From NCBI RefSeq assembly GCF_013388255.1, contig NZ_CP058215.1:1612001-1676000 (forward strand): a stretch of DNA of 64,000 nt, given 5' to 3'. The position numbers and the translations under genes are program-made. Shown here piece after piece: positions 4,600 to 11,947 of this stretch; the stretch's first letter is position 1; each line of letters begins with the position of its first letter. Below the pieces are notes generated by a model. That model did not search any database. It was given only the letters and a program-made list of their open reading frames with translations, and was not told the origin of the DNA. Source of the stretch: Methanolobus zinderi. Lineage in GTDB: Archaea > Halobacteriota > Methanosarcinia > Methanosarcinales > Methanosarcinaceae.

Positions 4600-5613
4600 G
4601 TGATCAAAGAAGTAATGCTTTATGATAAGCTGGAAGACAATAAGGTCCAGTGCAGGATATGCAGCCACAGATGCAGGATCTCACCGGGAAAGAGGGGATT
4701 CTGCAGAGTAAGGGAGAACAGGGAAGGAACGCTTTACGCCCTGAATTACAGTGTCGTTTCAAGTGAGGCACTTGATCCTGTGGAAAAAAAGCCGCTATTT
4801 CATTTCTATCCAGGGTCCCCGGTATATTCCCTGGGAAGCATAGGCTGTAATTTCAGGTGTAAGCATTGCCAGAACTGGACAATATCCCAGGTAGAAATTG
4901 ATTCGGCAAATGCCTTTGAGCTCAGCCCTGAGCAGGCAGTGTCCAGAGCAGTAGAACTGGGTGCAAGGTCTATCGCCTGGACATATAATGAGCCAAGTAT
5001 CTGGTTCGAGTACACATATGACTGTGCAAAACTGGCAAAAGAAGCTGGACTTGCTACCATTTACGTCACCAACGGATACATTACACCCGAAGCTCTCAGA
5101 AAAATAGCACCCTACCTGGATGCCTACAGAGTTGATATAAAAGCATTCAACGAGGACTTCTACAGAAAAATTGCAAGTGCAAAACTTGCGCCTGTGCTGG
5201 AGTCCACAATACTTGCAAAGGAACTTGGAATGCATATAGAGGTCGTGAACCTTATCATACCGACAATGAACGACGACCCGGAAGAGATAAGAAATATGGT
5301 AAAATGGATCCACGACAAAATTGGCGCGGACACGCCCATTCATTTCACACGCTTCCACCCCTTCTATCAGTTGACGGATGTGCCATCAACACCTCTCAAA
5401 ACACTGGAAAAGGCATATGACATTGCCAGGGAAGAGGGTATGCAATATGTTTATCTTGGAAATGTAATGGGAACCGAGAAAGAGCATACATTCTGCCCGA
5501 GCTGTGATGAGATGCTGATAAGAAGAGGGGCATTCGACACACTCGCCTGTACGGTTACGCAAGATAATAAATGCCCCGCCTGCGGAGCATCAATTAATGT
5601 TATCAATGACTGA
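4600..5613 (+). CDS. amrS: AmmeMemoRadiSam system radical SAM enzyme
   Basis: Radical SAM protein related to pyruvate formate-lyase activating enzymes, of the AmrS family that co-occurs with AMMECR1 and MEMO proteins across archaea and bacteria. The [4Fe-4S]/SAM cluster motif CNFRCKHC is near residue 83. N-terminal cysteines (CRICSHRCRI, residues ~18-27) and a C-terminal zinc-ribbon-like pair (CPSCDE and CPACGA, residues ~305 and ~328) are present. Length (337 aa) is normal. The GTG start at 4600 is used; the ATG at 4615 is an alternative. AMMECR1 and MEMO are not neighbours here. The natural substrate of this family is not firmly established. Confidence 0.88.
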   Translation: MIKEVMLYDKLEDNKVQCRICSHRCRISPGKRGFCRVRENREGTLYALNYSVVSSEALDPVEKKPLFHFYPGSPVYSLGSIGCNFRCKHCQNWTISQVEIDSANAFELSPEQAVSRAVELGARSIAWTYNEPSIWFEYTYDCAKLAKEAGLATIYVTNGYITPEALRKIAPYLDAYRVDIKAFNEDFYRKIASAKLAPVLESTILAKELGMHIEVVNLIIPTMNDDPEEIRNMVKWIHDKIGADTPIHFTRFHPFYQLTDVPSTPLKTLEKAYDIAREEGMQYVYLGNVMGTEKEHTFCPSCDEMLIRRGAFDTLACTVTQDNKCPACGASINVIND

Positions 5614-5855: not shown

Positions 5856-5928
5856 GCCGCAATAACTCAGTTGGTAGAGTGTCTGGCTGTTAACCAGAAT
5901 GTCACAGGTTCGAGCCCTGTTTGCGGCG
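5856..5928 (+). tRNA. tRNA-Asn (GTT)
   Basis: Full cloverleaf: acceptor stem GCCGCAA (5856-5862) pairs with TTGCGGC (5921-5927), discriminator G at 5928. The anticodon stem TCTGG/CCAGA encloses loop CTGTTAA, anticodon GTT at 5889-5891. The T arm carries GGTTCGAGCC. No CCA is encoded and no intron is seen. Probably co-transcribed with the next tRNA, 22 bp downstream. Confidence 0.96.
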
Positions 5929-5950
5929 CTCAAAACTTCCTTTTCTCGAT

Positions 5951-6025
5951 GGGCCTGTAGCTTAGCCAGGTTAGAGCGCTCGGCTCATAACCGAGCGGTC
6001 ACCGGTTCGAATCCGGTTAGGCCCA
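5951..6025 (+). tRNA. tRNA with CAT anticodon: probably tRNA-Ile2, less likely elongator tRNA-Met
   Basis: Cloverleaf: GGGCCTG (5951-5957) pairs with TAGGCCC (6018-6024) with one G-T pair; discriminator A at 6025. The anticodon arm CTCGG-CTCATAA-CCGAG gives anticodon CAT. It is not an initiator: it lacks the G-C triplets typical at the base of the initiator anticodon stem. The GGGCC acceptor end and A73 match archaeal tRNA-Ile2, whose C34 is changed to agmatidine by TiaS so that it reads AUA. Automatic annotation usually calls such genes tRNA-Met. The Ile2 identity is inferred from the acceptor bases. Confidence 0.9.
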
Positions 6026-6064
6026 CTAAATAATTTTAGATATTGCTGACTTAATTACGTTTTG

Positions 6065-6118
6065 TAGTCGTTATTCTGTAAAAAGGTTCAACTCATTTGG
6101 CTATTTTGTGGGCAACTC
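6065..6118. repeat. Direct repeat copy 1 (insertion-sequence end relic)
   Basis: About 54 bp beginning TAGTCGTTATTCTGTAAAAA and running through TATTTTGTGGGC. It is repeated with few mismatches and one indel at 9640-9694, same orientation, 3.6 kb away. The two copies bracket the three-gene radical SAM cassette and the TnpB relic. The CTGTAAAAA core resembles insertion-sequence ends and also the left edge of the DDE transposase relic at ~10564. Confidence 0.75.
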
Positions 6119-6290
6119 AAAGAATGAGCTTTAACTAACTTAATCCAGTAGTTCTCTAATTTTCCTCTATCTTGTTCCTGCCACAATTGAATTACCTTAA
6201 ACATTGCATTACTAACGAATTCTTAACTTCCCCTAAGCCATTCTTCAAGTGTGAAAGTAGCCCTGTGAAGTGATATTCTGGCAATGGATG
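6088..6290 (-). pseudogene. Degenerate open frame, possible transposase C-terminal relic
   Basis: On the minus strand a coding-like frame ends with TGA at 6090-6088, inside repeat copy 1. It is broken by an in-frame TAA after ...LEEWLRGS and continues as VSNAMFKVIQLWQEQDRG. No start or complete domain is visible. The overlap with a repeated end sequence suggests the tail of a transposase, but I do not recognise the family. Confidence 0.35.
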
Positions 6291-6383
6291 GACAGATAAG
6301 GTGATCACAGTCGATATACTTTCTGTTTTTGTTAATATTTCTGTACCTAGAGGCATGAGTATTTGATTGGCATCCTAATTTTT

Positions 6384-6405
6384 ATACTATTTACTCTAAT
6401 AGTAT
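6384..6405 (+). promoter_or_regulatory. Inverted repeat overlapping a TATA-like box
   Basis: ATACTATT (6384-6391), 6-nt spacer, AATAGTAT (6398-6405): a perfect 8-bp dyad. Its left arm overlaps the TATA-like TTTTTATACT about 75 bp upstream of the first gene of the cassette. Its placement suits an operator for a repressor acting on the cassette promoter. Confidence 0.45.
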
Positions 6406-6461
6406 CTATACATTGATTAGGAAATCATATGATTGGACCAGGATTATAAACAGGTGGTAAG

Positions 6462-7196
6462 ATGAATGCGAAAAAAGGAAACACAAAGTTAGTACTGTTG
6501 ACAGTTGCCATATTGGTCTTAGGTAGCGTTTTTTGGGTATATGCAAGTTTTTCTCTTTTGGGACCAAAAGATCTGGGAGTCGAGTATACCCACGAGGATT
6601 ATGTAAATGCTTTAGAAAAGACCGGAATCCAGATAGAATACGAAGGCATGACCGGCGAGGAGCTTGAAGAGTACAAGTTGAATGCTGAAAAGAAATCTAT
6701 TCACGATTACAATTTTGAGTTCTCGGATTATGAGCAAAAACAATTCACTCTGACGGCAGCTGAGTCAACTGCCCTGCTCAACGAAATAGCTCCCGGATTC
6801 TGGTGGTTTGATGATCTGCAGGTGAAGGTCCTGCCTGATGGAACCATGGAAGGGTCTAGCACGGCTGACATAAAACGGCTTAAGGAAGACCTGTATTCAG
6901 ATGTTGCGGACGATGTCCCGCTCCCGCTTCCGGACAGTTTGAACATCTACAGTAAGGGCAGGGTCAGCGTTGTTAACAACCAGCTGAGCGGAGACCCGGA
7001 AAACTTCTATCTTGGAGCAGTCCAGCTTCCCGACAAATATCTGGAAGAAGAAAGCGTGAACACCATGGAGGATTATTTCCCCAGAATCTATACAGTCGTC
7101 CCGGGACTGGAGATAACAAGCCTTACTTCCAATTCCAATGGCGAGTTCGTCTTTGATGGGGTCATCCCTCAAAAGGTGTCCGTGACCAAAAAATAA
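6462..7196 (+). CDS. Membrane-anchored extracytoplasmic protein of unknown function
   Basis: Not recognised. The 244 residues start with a short positive segment (MNAKKGNTK) followed by a single hydrophobic helix (about residues 10-30) with no lipobox, so it is probably an uncleaved anchor. The remaining ~210 residues are acidic and soluble, ending in a positive tail VSVTKK. AGGTGG precedes the ATG by about 5 nt. It is the first gene of a tight three-gene set: the radical SAM gene starts within 30 bp of its stop. The context suggests it is a substrate, receptor or helper of the radical SAM enzyme or hydrolase. The cassette lies between direct repeats and insertion-sequence relics, which suggests acquisition by transfer. 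Confidence 0.7.
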   Translation: MNAKKGNTKLVLLTVAILVLGSVFWVYASFSLLGPKDLGVEYTHEDYVNALEKTGIQIEYEGMTGEELEEYKLNAEKKSIHDYNFEFSDYEQKQFTLTAAESTALLNEIAPGFWWFDDLQVKVLPDGTMEGSSTADIKRLKEDLYSDVADDVPLPLPDSLNIYSKGRVSVVNNQLSGDPENFYLGAVQLPDKYLEEESVNTMEDYFPRIYTVVPGLEITSLTSNSNGEFVFDGVIPQKVSVTKK

Positions 7197-7225
7197 GATT
7201 TGGGGTTTTGCACTTGAGGTATCTG

Positions 7226-8494
7226 ATGATCAATGGGAACAAGGAGAAGATCCCTCCGTTCCCGCATCACAAGGCTTACATCTACAGGAGTAAACAGTTC
7301 TTTTTAGCAAGTGGGATAACCACCCACCTGACCATGGGCAATTTAATCACGCTCAAAGAGTTATATAAGGGATTCAGTAACAAATGTTCCATCCCAAGGG
7401 TTCTGCTGGTGGATCCTACGAGTGACTGCAATTTGAGATGTAAGGGCTGCTGGTCACAGGACTATGAGAGTGGTCATAATATCTCCTATGAGAAGTTTGA
7501 CGATATATTGGATCAGGCTGAAAAGCTGGGGATCATGGATTGTCTGATGACGGGCGGAGAGCCCTTACTTCGCAAGGATGATATCCTGAAACTGTGCAAA
7601 AAGCATGATCGCATGACCTTTGGAGCATTTACGAATGCAACTTTGATCGATGAGGAACTCGCCGATGACATGGCAAGACTGGGAAATCTGAATGTCTTCG
7701 TAAGTATCGAGGGAACAAAAGAGGAAACAGATTTCAGAAGAGGGCCGGGAGTCTACGATAAAGCTATCAGGGCTATGGATATCCTGAGATCCCGGGACAT
7801 AGGTTTCGGATTTTCGGCATGTTACCATTCCAGGAACTACAAGACCATAGCCAGCGATGAATTCCTGGATCGTATGCGAGAGAGAGGAGCATGGTTCGGA
7901 TGGCTTTTCCAGTATATCCCTGTGGGAAGCAATGCCGATACCTCCCTTGTATGCACTCCTGAGCAAAGGGCATACGTGCAGGAGAAGATCCGGGATTATT
8001 GTACTGAACATGACTATATGATCATAGATTTCTGGAATAACGGGCATCTTTCTTTTGGTTGCATCGGTGCGGGTGTTGGTTTTGCCCACATCAACGCTAA
8101 AGGTGACGTTGAACCCTGTGCTTTCTGCCATTATTCCGATTCGAATATATACGAAGTATCGCTTGCTGAAGCTCTCAGGTCCAAGTTCTTTACCACATTC
8201 AGAAATGCTCAACCATTTTCACAGAATCCGTTAAGGCCATGTCCTCTAATAGATAATCCGGAGGCGCTAGTTGATGTGGTCAGGAATACAGGAGCAAGAT
8301 CGACCCATATGGCCAACCCGGAATCCGCAGAGGAACTTGCAAGTAAAAGCTATGAGCGTGCAAAGCAGTGGGAAAGGATCTCCGAAGACCTGTTCCGTAA
8401 AATGCCTGAGCATAACAGGAAGAACTTCCCCCTGTTCTTAAAGTACCTTGCTTTTAAGAAAGGAATAACCGATGGCAGGAGAAAGAAGGTTTAG
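7226..8494 (+). CDS. Radical SAM / SPASM-like protein
   Basis: Cytoplasmic radical SAM enzyme. The cluster motif CNLRCKGC is near residue 72, followed by MTGGEPLLR, a typical SAM-binding glycine motif. A C-terminal SPASM-like region has scattered cysteines (FGCIG, EPCAFCHY, RPCPL) that could bind one auxiliary Fe-S cluster. The ~45 residues before the core and ~80 after it are not familiar. Start chosen at ATG 7226, with GAGGT 5 nt upstream; TTG 7208 or 7214 would add 4-6 residues. The hydrolase gene overlaps its 3' end by 23 bp. It could modify a peptide, a lipid-like molecule or the neighbouring anchored protein; the sequence does not decide. Confidence 0.85.
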   Translation: MINGNKEKIPPFPHHKAYIYRSKQFFLASGITTHLTMGNLITLKELYKGFSNKCSIPRVLLVDPTSDCNLRCKGCWSQDYESGHNISYEKFDDILDQAEKLGIMDCLMTGGEPLLRKDDILKLCKKHDRMTFGAFTNATLIDEELADDMARLGNLNVFVSIEGTKEETDFRRGPGVYDKAIRAMDILRSRDIGFGFSACYHSRNYKTIASDEFLDRMRERGAWFGWLFQYIPVGSNADTSLVCTPEQRAYVQEKIRDYCTEHDYMIIDFWNNGHLSFGCIGAGVGFAHINAKGDVEPCAFCHYSDSNIYEVSLAEALRSKFFTTFRNAQPFSQNPLRPCPLIDNPEALVDVVRNTGARSTHMANPESAEELASKSYERAKQWERISEDLFRKMPEHNRKNFPLFLKYLAFKKGITDGRRKKV

Positions 8495-9242
8495 TTGTGA
8501 AGTTCACCAAGTAGGTCATACTTCCAGATGGCTGGTGTTGGTACACGGTTTTGGAGGCAGTGCAAGGACCTGGAAGAAACAGGTAGAGTTCTTTTCCAGG
8601 CACTATAACCTGCTTGTGCCACAAATGCACGAGGATATGGACGATGAGTATCTTGATGTCGATAAGGTCTGTGAGATAATAAGCAATACGTTGGACCACC
8701 ATAATATTGAGAAAGCTTACTTTGTTGGTTTTTCTTTCAGCTCGCTGATCTGTTTGCGGTTTGCCGTGCTCTACCCGGAGAAGGTGGATTCAATGATCAT
8801 GGGAGGAGGGATCATAAAGTTCAACCTGAAAACAAGATTCCTGCTTTCCCTGGCAATCACTTTTAAAAAATGCATCAATTACATGTTCCTCTACAGATTC
8901 TTTGCTTACATCATAATGCCGAGAAAGAACCATTCAAGGTCACGAAGCATATTTGTGAAGGAAGCAGAGAAACTGGGATATGTTGAGTTCTGTAAATGGG
9001 TCGACATAATCCCTCAAACGAAACAAAGTCTGAACTGGCTGGAAAGTATAAGCGATGACATTGACATCCTGTATGTTTCAGGTAACCAGGACTATCTTTT
9101 TTTAAAGGACACTCTCAAGTATAGTAAAAGATTTAGCAACTCCAGAGTAGAAATAATTGAAAACTGCGGGCATGTATGTTCCATCGAACAACACGATAAG
9201 TTCAACAACATTGTTTTCCGATACTTGAATCGAATGGCTTAG
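8472..9242 (+). CDS. Alpha/beta hydrolase
   Basis: Alpha/beta-hydrolase fold enzyme, probably esterase or thioesterase. The oxyanion-hole motif HGFGGSARTW is at residue ~25, the nucleophile elbow is GFSFSS (Ser ~92, GxSxS), the acid is probably the Asp in GNQDYL (~197), and the catalytic His is in ENCGHVCSIEQ (~233). A hydrophobic cap segment (residues ~120-150) may give a lipid-like substrate pocket or membrane contact. AAAGGA lies 7 nt before the ATG, inside the end of the radical SAM gene; the overlap implies translational coupling. Last gene of the cassette. Substrate unknown. Confidence 0.85.
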   Translation: MAGERRFSCEVHQVGHTSRWLVLVHGFGGSARTWKKQVEFFSRHYNLLVPQMHEDMDDEYLDVDKVCEIISNTLDHHNIEKAYFVGFSFSSLICLRFAVLYPEKVDSMIMGGGIIKFNLKTRFLLSLAITFKKCINYMFLYRFFAYIIMPRKNHSRSRSIFVKEAEKLGYVEFCKWVDIIPQTKQSLNWLESISDDIDILYVSGNQDYLFLKDTLKYSKRFSNSRVEIIENCGHVCSIEQHDKFNNIVFRYLNRMA

Positions 9243-9283
9243 AGGCTTTATCATGTGTATTGCACTTGGCAGGGGTGATTACT

Positions 9284-9303
9284 CCCTCCACTGAAGTGGA
9301 GGG
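9284..9303. repeat. Hairpin at the right end of an IS200/IS605-type element
   Basis: CCCTCCACT / GA / AGTGGAGGG is a perfect 9-bp stem with a 2-nt loop. It sits just downstream (minus strand) of the tnpB stop. Subterminal hairpins of this type mark the right end of IS200/IS605-family elements and form part of the guide RNA scaffold in intact TnpB systems. It may also terminate transcription of the cassette. Confidence 0.6.
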
Positions 9304-9306
9304 CAT

Positions 9307-9600
9307 CTAAGCTTTTTGTACTAAAGACCTTAGCCACAGTTTGAGTATATTAACTGCAGCGTTGTGATACTCTGCCCAGAACAAGACCACAGAAAGTACA
9401 ACTGTGTGTTCTTTCAGACAGGTTTTTCTGGCAATTTAACAACAACCAGGACACATTTGCGAAATAGACCTTTAAAGAACAAGTTCCAGAATGGGCCGTC
9501 CCGGGTTCGGTCAGCTTTGGAGAGCCTCTTCTGTTTGGAGTATGAAAGGCCTTTCAAACTTCATGGCCTGGAACACCTTATGATAGTTCAGTGAGACACG
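9307..9600 (-). pseudogene. tnpB: TnpB (IS200/IS605 OrfB) C-terminal relic
   Basis: Minus-strand translations in different frames rebuild the end of a TnpB protein: a first zinc-finger half (SQ-MCPGC), then HSCTFCGLVLGR (second CxxC), then EYHNAAVNILKLW and a TAG stop at 9309-9307. The pieces lie in different frames, so at least two frameshifts separate them. The RuvC core and N-terminus are absent. It cannot encode an active nuclease. It shows that an IS605-like element once sat at the 3' side of the radical SAM cassette. Confidence 0.7.
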
Positions 9601-9639
9601 CTTAGAAACTTTAGATAGTATTTATTAAATTATGTTTTT

Positions 9640-9694
9640 TAGTCGTTATTCTGTAAAAAGGTTCAACTTATTTTGACTATTTTGTGGGCGACTC
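9640..9694. repeat. Direct repeat copy 2 (insertion-sequence end relic)
   Basis: Second copy of the sequence at 6065-6118, in the same orientation, one base longer. It begins TAGTCGTTATTCTGTAAAAA and includes GACTATTTTGTGGGC. It lies between the TnpB relic and the MntA-HepT pair and forms the right flank of the region carrying the radical SAM cassette. Confidence 0.75.
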
Positions 9695-9772
9695 TAAGTA
9701 GTAAAATATATTTTAATGACTTAGTCATAGAAGGAAGGATCATTTCATTTTTCCATGTTAGAAATTGCCTGC

Positions 9773-10111
9773 TCAATCTATCTCAACCAGAATTGCCCGG
9801 ATAGAATCCCTTAAACCAATCAGACGATTGCCAACAACATCCCACACAATCACATAATCGATTCCGAAATAACCATGAGCTAAGCGATCCCGCATACCGG
9901 CAATCACTCTCCATGGAACGTCAGAATAACTTGTTTTAATTTCATCCGGCACATTTTTAGCGGCTTCACCGATGATCTCTATATTCTTCACAACTGCCTT
10001 CTGGGTTTTCCTATCGTTCTGAAATTCAGTGAAGTCCATTCCTGAAGTGAACTCTTCAATTTCATCAATCGCTTCAACAATGTCAGCTAAAAACAACCTG
10101 TACTCGCGCAT
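9773..10111 (-). CDS. hepT: HepT-like toxin (DUF86 HEPN ribonuclease)
   Basis: Toxin of a type VII MntA-HepT system: HEPN-fold RNase that cuts RNA and is silenced when MntA adds AMP groups to a tyrosine. The Rx4-6H signature is visible as RDRLAHGYF near residue 77, including the tyrosine next to the motif that is modified in characterised members. Length of 112 aa is typical. The start was moved to the internal ATG at 10111 because GAGGTGG lies 5 nt upstream; the longer frame would begin at 10135. MntA lies 10 bp upstream on the same strand. Confidence 0.88.
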   Translation of the reverse strand: MREYRLFLADIVEAIDEIEEFTSGMDFTEFQNDRKTQKAVVKNIEIIGEAAKNVPDEIKTSYSDVPWRVIAGMRDRLAHGYFGIDYVIVWDVVGNRLIGLRDSIRAILVEID

Positions 10112-10121
10112 GAAAACCACC

Positions 10122-10421
10122 TCATGCATGTACATAAATAACTTCTGAGAAAATTTTTTGTTTTAACTCATCCCTTACGGCACGTTTCGAGATGATATCC
10201 ACCTTTGACTCGAACTCGTCTTCAAGAAAAATTCCAAGGGCTGCGAGATCAAAAAGATCTGCACCTTTCTCGAACTCAACAAGGAAGTCAATATCGCTTC
10301 CGGTCTTGTAGTCATTCCTTACCACCGACCCAAAAAGGCCTATTTCCTTTACCTTATAGTTCCTTTTCAACTCCGGAAGCAGTTCATCAAGTCTCCCCAG
10401 AACAATATCCCTCTTGATCAT
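10122..10421 (-). CDS. mntA: MntA-like minimal nucleotidyltransferase antitoxin
   Basis: Minimal nucleotidyltransferase of the DNA polymerase beta fold, antitoxin partner of HepT. The active-site signature GSVVRNDYKTGSDIDFLVEF shows the GSxxR and SDxD metal-binding aspartates near residues 29-47. It has 99 residues and is transcribed first, directly before hepT. Biochemically studied family members transfer AMP to HepT; that activity is inferred here from the motif and the pairing. The module sits between two insertion-sequence relics, in line with horizontal movement. Confidence 0.88.
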   Translation of the reverse strand: MIKRDIVLGRLDELLPELKRNYKVKEIGLFGSVVRNDYKTGSDIDFLVEFEKGADLFDLAALGIFLEDEFESKVDIISKRAVRDELKQKIFSEVIYVHA

Positions 10422-10563: not shown

Positions 10564-11093
10564 GGCTCTGTAAAAAACCTATTTCCTACTTAATTTAGTC
10601 CGTAATTCTTTAAAATGGATAAAAATCAAAGTGTTGCTTGCTATCGAAAACACAAAGGGAATGTTTAGTATTTTGTTCCAGATCAAAGATCTGGAACTCC
10701 CATTAAATATTCGATTTGATGGCAGAGTAACAAGTACTTAAAGTTTGTCGATGCAGCTTTAGCTGCATCAGGAAACTCACCTTTGGAGATATACAGTTGT
10801 AAGTATTCCAAGAGTAAATATACGCAACATCAGCTATTGACATTGGTTTTGTTGAAAGAGTACCTGAAAACTGATTACAGGAGTTCGATGAAGGATTCTA
10901 TCATAATAGAAATCTAGTTGAAACTATGTTCTCAGTCCTTAAAAGGGAATATGGTGAAGAAATCAAGGCAAGAAAGTACTGGAATCAGGTAAAGGAGATT
11001 AAAGTAAAGTTAATAGTGCACAACCTTAGCAGGTGTGCCAAGGTTGTCCATGTAATTCAAATTAGGATTTCTACAAAGCATAAATTAAATTAA
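10564..11093 (+). pseudogene. Internally deleted DDE transposase relic (IS5-like)
   Basis: Remains of an insertion sequence. The left edge near 10564 has GGCTCTGTAAAAAACC, an IS-end-like sequence. A short start fragment (MDKNQSVACYRKHKGN) runs from 10615 to a stop. At 10741-10890 a second piece reads LEIYSCKYSKSKYTQHQLLTL-type N-terminal transposase sequence. It then joins out of frame to a C-terminal part (10881-11093) reading HNRNLVETMFSVLKREYG, which carries the final Glu-containing motif of DDE transposases. The catalytic centre between them is missing. The exact IS family is not certain. Confidence 0.65.
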
Positions 11094-11561: not shown

Positions 11562-11699
11562 CTATGCAAATACCATTAAAGTGTCGAGTCTGGCAGTTCC
11601 TTTCTCGGTCCAGTATCCACATATTTCGCAATGCTGTATATTCCGGTCCACCTGATTCAGGCGTGCGTTACACTCAGGACATTCTTTTAGTTGATTCAA
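11562..11699 (-). CDS. Putative zinc-ribbon mini-protein, 45 residues
   Basis: Minus-strand frame starting at TTG 11699 with GGGG about 8-9 nt upstream. It has two cysteine pairs in knuckle arrangement, KECPECNARL and HCEICGYW, spaced 16 residues apart, which together can bind one zinc ion. The C-terminus (WTEKGTARLDTLMVFA) is short. It may be a genuine mini zinc ribbon or the remnant of a longer protein. No neighbour suggests a role. Confidence 0.4.
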   Translation of the reverse strand: MNQLKECPECNARLNQVDRNIQHCEICGYWTEKGTARLDTLMVFA

Positions 11700-11947
11700 T
11701 TAATTACCCCACTACTGTCAGGAAATACATCCGTTCCCCACCGATATAGGCCTCCGGGAACTTCATCCTGACAATACCTACCATTACATACTTTTATTTA
11801 AGCTAACCTATTATTATCTTCATCGACCTGTTTAAAATAATACGCCTATGAAATTTTCAACAGCATAGTTTATTGTTTCAGAAGAAAAAGCCTGACTTCT
11901 GTACTTTTATGTATACAAAAAATAATTGGAGACACGGTGCCTGATTC

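Follow-up and report, generated by a model that had tools for sequence, protein, structure and literature searches.

An uncharacterised radical SAM family with exchanged extracytoplasmic partners, and its conserved accessory operon in Methanolobus zinderi

Our analysis of a window of 64,000 nucleotides (the whole stretch of DNA analysed) from Methanolobus zinderi revealed that three neighbouring genes, encoding a membrane-anchored extracytoplasmic protein (P1), a radical SAM enzyme (P2) and an alpha/beta hydrolase (P3), form an accessory operon that is conserved among methylotrophic Methanosarcinaceae and probably changed its address in this lineage. Compared with the original prediction, made from the letters alone, this operon is better conserved and its mobility less evident. 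Moreover, P2 belongs to an uncharacterised, well-conserved radical SAM family with members in methylotrophic methanogens, Clostridia and Bacteroidales, whose gene usually adjoins that of a membrane-anchored extracytoplasmic protein; what is thereby defined is a fixed enzyme with swapped extracytoplasmic partners in both archaea and bacteria. As for the substrate class, the order of the steps and the role of each partner, we infer the following, tentatively and at somewhat less than even confidence: the cytosolic enzyme P2 would make or modify a hydrophobic, lipid-like molecule, P3 would cleave an ester- or thioester-type bond in the substrate or product, and P1, anchored in the membrane with an outer domain, would bind or carry the molecule at the cell surface, the conserved operon as a whole having probably come from Clostridia.

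The three genes are co-directional on the forward strand, with P1 (244 amino acids) at 6462..7196, P2 at 7208..8494 and P3 at 8472..9242, and the three protein kinds proposed for them are borne out by the open reading frames together with Pfam and the predicted topology. Packing with overlaps had also been claimed; this holds for the P2/P3 junction, where the overlap is 23 bp, but not for P1 and P2, which are separated by 11 bp. The gaps within the operon, of about 10-20 bp, leave no room for a separate precursor gene, and the 400 bp flanking the trio are conserved between sister genomes only. In the upstream region, the dyad described as part of a promoter (6384..6405, ATACTATT-tactct-AATAGTAT) does have perfect 8-bp arms; however, a dyad of this kind arises in 8% of the shuffled versions of the region, which is near the chance level, and it is not kept upstream of the other methanogen copies, so that a regulatory dyad was rejected. 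As was stated beforehand, no named system with this trio could be found in NCBIfam, Pfam or the literature searched. Likewise, neither P2 nor P3 can be assigned to an NCBIfam equivalog, and the papers searched that name both Methanolobus and radical SAM contain nothing on this radical SAM enzyme.

P2 matches Radical_SAM (PF04055, 1.6e-19) and, in its C-terminal part, SPASM (PF13186, 25.3 bits with a cut-off of 21.5). Across an alignment of 45 homologues, with a mean column identity of 63% taken on a diverse subset, the cysteines C74, C78 and C81 of the CX3CX2C motif of the SAM cluster are invariant in 45/45, and the same invariance is seen for the cysteines at 205 (in an S-x-C-Y-H motif), 285, 304, 307 and 345. 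The full seven-cysteine SPASM pattern, with its two auxiliary clusters, is absent in P2; the four invariant cysteines found there, C285, C304, C307 and C345, fit one auxiliary cluster, and one auxiliary [4Fe-4S] cluster is thus predicted. Since the core is so strongly conserved across the 45 proteins, one reaction is likely to be common to the family.

The hydrolase P3 matches Abhydrolase_1 (PF00561, 4.4e-16), and its Ser88-Asp207-His234 triad is invariant in 18/18 homologues, by which it should be an active serine hydrolase. Between the Ser and the Asp lies a hydrophobic stretch of sequence that would form a cap. P3 is absent from the more distant P1-P2 loci, which places it outside the core reaction.

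For P1, the topology predicted from sequence consists of a positively charged start, one membrane helix (about residues 5-31) and an outer domain. Neither Pfam nor a sequence comparison with solved structures gave a match, and the alignment of 27 homologues revealed seven invariant residues, namely G166, N173, G185, Y210, P214, G227 and P236. The AF2 model (pLDDT 83.5, pTM 0.75) has as its nearest solved folds TULIP lipid binders, with BPI first and LBP, CETP, YceB and SPLUNC1 also listed, YceB being a TULIP protein (PMC6791001). These matches are weak (Foldseek best E 2.5e-3; VIA Z <=3.4, rmsd 7.3), and ToxS, StART and NTF2 folds are among the structure matches as well. The layout of P1 suggested DUF2140/YpmS, but a profile comparison, in which one DUF2140 protein was compared, gave nothing usable and did not support the assignment. 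In Clostridia P1 is rare, with matches in 4 of 341 genomes, and several of the clostridial P1 proteins have a zinc ribbon ahead of the membrane helix; at two loci (L050, L051) a protein of about five zinc ribbons is encoded directly upstream of such a P1 with an N-terminal zinc ribbon.

In other bacteria the place of P1 is taken by other proteins. The partner in Bacteroidales is a lipoprotein of about 213 amino acids with a 4-TM protein, and in some Clostridia it is a lipoprotein of about 500 amino acids with an ABC ATPase and two ABC-2 permeases, so that the partners of P2 are of three sequence-unrelated kinds. In fact, homology of P1 to either lipoprotein (families c4 and c8) was rejected, as the profile comparison gave no match, and none of the three had a match above cut-off to the NCBIfam lipoprotein families. 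The model of the Bacteroidales partner (pLDDT 72.3) resembles YmcC-like lipoproteins with Z of 7.0 and 6.8 and LolA with Z of 4 to 5. Z values of the size seen for this partner and P1 may mean a common arrangement only; taken together, the weak fold matches of the two modelled partners would point to the binding of a hydrophobic ligand.

A P2 tree was built by quick maximum likelihood, with a midpoint root for drawing only. The P2 rows from trio loci group into a single clade (SH-aLRT 95), archaeal rows are nested inside the clostridial ones, the P1-P2 pairs lie on several separate branches, and the Bacteroidales form is one clade. From this we infer that P1-P2 would be the older pairing, which P3 would have joined once, and that the trio would have passed from Clostridia to methanogens; its acquisition from Clostridia is probable.

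The enzyme stays constant whereas the protein outside changes, in one case along with an exporter, and this makes a small molecule a better candidate for the substrate than a protein. A more far-reaching form of the lipid reading, which we regard as rather doubtful, is that of an as yet unrecognised system in which one conserved radical SAM enzyme of archaea and bacteria would produce a new lipid-like molecule and pass it to interchangeable lipid-binding proteins anchored at the surface, namely TULIP-like ones in methanogens and in some of the Clostridia, YmcC/LolA-like ones in Bacteroidales, and a third lipoprotein with its exporter in other Clostridia. If the lipid reading is true, it would mean a new membrane or secreted-lipid chemistry.

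The original prediction allowed that the anchored protein is helper or substrate of the enzyme, and this is plausible in itself. If P1 is the substrate, P2 would modify one of its residues in the cytosol, ahead of or in the course of its insertion into the membrane, with P3 as an accessory hydrolase; in Bacteroidales and some Clostridia this part would fall to the unrelated lipoproteins. Peptides are frequent targets of radical SAM/SPASM enzymes. P1 is the sole polypeptide that always adjoins P2 in the trio loci, its seven invariant residues would suit such a role, and NCBIfam holds a hypothetical 'rSAM with lipoprotein' family (TIGR04133). However, the partner families have no detectable homology to each other while the enzyme is strongly conserved, P1 shows no leader-core layout, and its domain is folded and outside whereas the enzyme is inside. 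A substrate role of P1 is thus unlikely in our estimation; if it were true, radical modification would be seen here in a new form, on a whole anchored protein.

A system for an antimicrobial or signalling small molecule, with P1 for self-protection or as receptor and P3 as activator, would agree with the ABC-2 exporters that adjoin the clostridial form, with the patchy presence and loss of the trio, and with the TetR regulator gene on the Methanosphaera plasmid pNP174 (L164), directly 3' of which a distant P2 relative (35%) is encoded. Against it, the loci compared share no toxin-, immunity- or regulator-like gene next to the trio, and we hold this reading to be quite unlikely. Relatives of P2 at 35% are also found on one Klebsiella and one Escherichia albertii plasmid (L162, L163). 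Altogether the plasmid, phage and virus sequences hold P2 relatives of only 35-46%, of full-length type, and none of those found there is annotated with the trio. A reading as a defence system was rejected, the similarity to viperins being only weak and of the general radical SAM kind.

The 3.6-kb segment had been taken for a mobile cassette boxed by two direct repeats of about 54 bp; on this view, an insertion beside the tRNA gene would have duplicated an attachment site and so given the repeats. The repeats are real and in the same orientation, with 47 of 54 bases identical in the best 54-base stretch against at most 31 of 54 in 200 shuffles, but their length was understated and is about 97 bp each. 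The left one (~6027..6123, forward strand) begins directly 3' of tRNA-Met(CAT) (5951..6026, forward), next to tRNA-Asn(GTT) (5856..5929, forward), and is the resident 3' flank of tRNA-Met, while the right one (~9602..9698, forward) is a second, diverged copy of this flank. These are the only two copies in the single-contig genome of 2.70 Mb; they are 78% alike, and closer to each other than to any relative's. Of 26 relatives (tRNA loci L093-L116), about 12 have the same sequence, much diverged, 3' of their tRNA-Asn/tRNA-Met pair, and no relative with a recognisable repeat at the pair has the trio there. We read the repeats as an old duplication of the tRNA 3' flank in this lineage. Such duplications happen, as the tRNA pair is itself duplicated in tandem in another genome of the genus (G004, L099/L118, G004:C1:364943-365415).

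The repeats matched no Rfam family, and their reading as ends of an insertion sequence was rejected, since they match the tRNA flank only and occur twice. The approximately 100 non-coding bases after tRNA-Met are recognisable in about half of the genus, and are possibly a trailer or a small RNA. Upstream of the tRNA pair, a radical SAM gene of the AmmeMemoRadiSam system (4600-5613, forward; TIGR04337, 361 bits, above cut-off) is syntenic across the genus and unrelated to P2.

To the right of the trio, the expected TnpB relic is confirmed at 9275..9463 on the reverse strand by comparison with the DNA of relatives, where it matches at 78-86% the C-terminal end of TnpB genes (IS200/IS605 type) that are open there and up to 385 amino acids long; Pfam gave no match on the relic itself. 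Farther on come an overlapping pair of a HepT-like RNase and a MntA-like nucleotidyltransferase (9773-10421, reverse), which scores below the NCBIfam cut-offs for type VII toxin-antitoxin equivalogs and whose nucleotidyltransferase matches PADLOC PDC-S09, a decayed DDE transposase remnant (~10860-11070; DDE_Tnp_1, 0.0029), and a second TnpB-type zinc-ribbon remnant, recognised by eye (~11640-11740, reverse). The right side is a graveyard of mobile elements, and no intact element brackets the trio: at the repeat edges there is no intact transposase or integrase, only the decayed TnpB remnant on the right.

A cassette would account for these relics, for the trio adjoining the tRNA pair here and lying at other sites in relatives, and for M. 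halotolerans, whose genome record carries the trio but not at the syntenic tRNA interval. In that species the interval (tRNA pair, DUF2334 gene, FemAB gene) is occupied by genes for a surface protein and a transporter, so that the search for an empty site did find an interval lacking the trio, but not a clean empty one. The reciprocal comparison, which sought the M. halotolerans position in M. zinderi, did not locate the site: one of the flanking genes gave no match there, and the other, a histidine kinase gene, gave 40. On the other hand, terminal repeats made by insertion would be near-identical, these are homologous to a tRNA flank in relatives with no trio there, and there is neither an integrase nor a third repeat copy genome-wide; we consider the cassette very unlikely.

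The complete trio is present in 18 of 27 genomes of the genus, M. zinderi included, with partial sets in two others (part of P2 with P3 at a contig end in G010, P1 only in G023), whereas the 33 genomes from other genera in the same sample lack its genes altogether; a scan of public genomes adds Methanomethylovorans, Methanococcoides, Methanosalsum and several Clostridia as carriers. In most Methanolobus-type genomes the trio stands at another site and has no such repeats around it, and it does occur free of the flanking relics, as a proposed check had asked. At nine methanogen loci it lies near a c6 gene (NnrU/PEMT-like) and/or a c7 gene. For example in G006, which has no trio, the order is c6, a P1 fragment (residues 137-164), a P3 fragment (151-251, with a stop), c13 and c7, and at the junction (L149 3081-3412) the P1 and P3 pieces are joined directly with P2 wholly gone. 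This arrangement is the scar of an internal deletion, and thus absence of the trio means loss in at least one case. In G005 an MFS-type transporter stands between c6 and c7 in place of the trio, and in M. zinderi c7 is found at 1.32 Mb, where neither c6 nor the trio accompanies it. Considering these neighbours, the scar, the replacement and the other addresses, the c6-c7 site was probably the ancestral place of the trio, which some species would then have lost and others relocated, such being the order of events that the loci suggest.

Among known systems, the best curated matches of P2 are NirJ, NirJ2 and AhbD, heme enzymes of the same superfamily matched over the radical SAM core. A tetrapyrrole or some other cofactor as the substrate of P2, with P1 and P3 carrying and trimming it, would agree with these top NCBIfam matches, but it is highly improbable, as the scores are 73-91 bits, 80.1, 75.0 and 72.8 among them, with cut-offs of 500 or more, and the genes around P2 encode lipoproteins and ABC-2 exporters instead of heme-pathway enzymes. 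It does speak against the lipid reading that these nearest families are heme-type and that HpnH, the adenosyl-hopene transferase, which as a radical SAM enzyme acting on a lipid has the kind of role proposed for P2, is matched at only 45-49 bits against a cut-off of 225. P3 has the fold and the Ser-Asp-His triad in common with MenH/BphD-type alpha/beta hydrolases, and differs from MenH in score (69 bits, cut-off 208.55) and in neighbours. For P1, the TULIP lipid-binding proteins BPI, CETP and YceB rank first among solved folds, if weakly. The hypothetical family TIGR04133 'rSAM_w_lipo', a term contained in no paper found, pairs by its name with a lipoprotein; P2 scores 60.9 bits and the Bacteroidales P2 57.9 bits against its cut-off of 425, and what it has in common with P2 is the radical SAM/SPASM type of enzyme and an anchored extracytoplasmic protein as neighbour.
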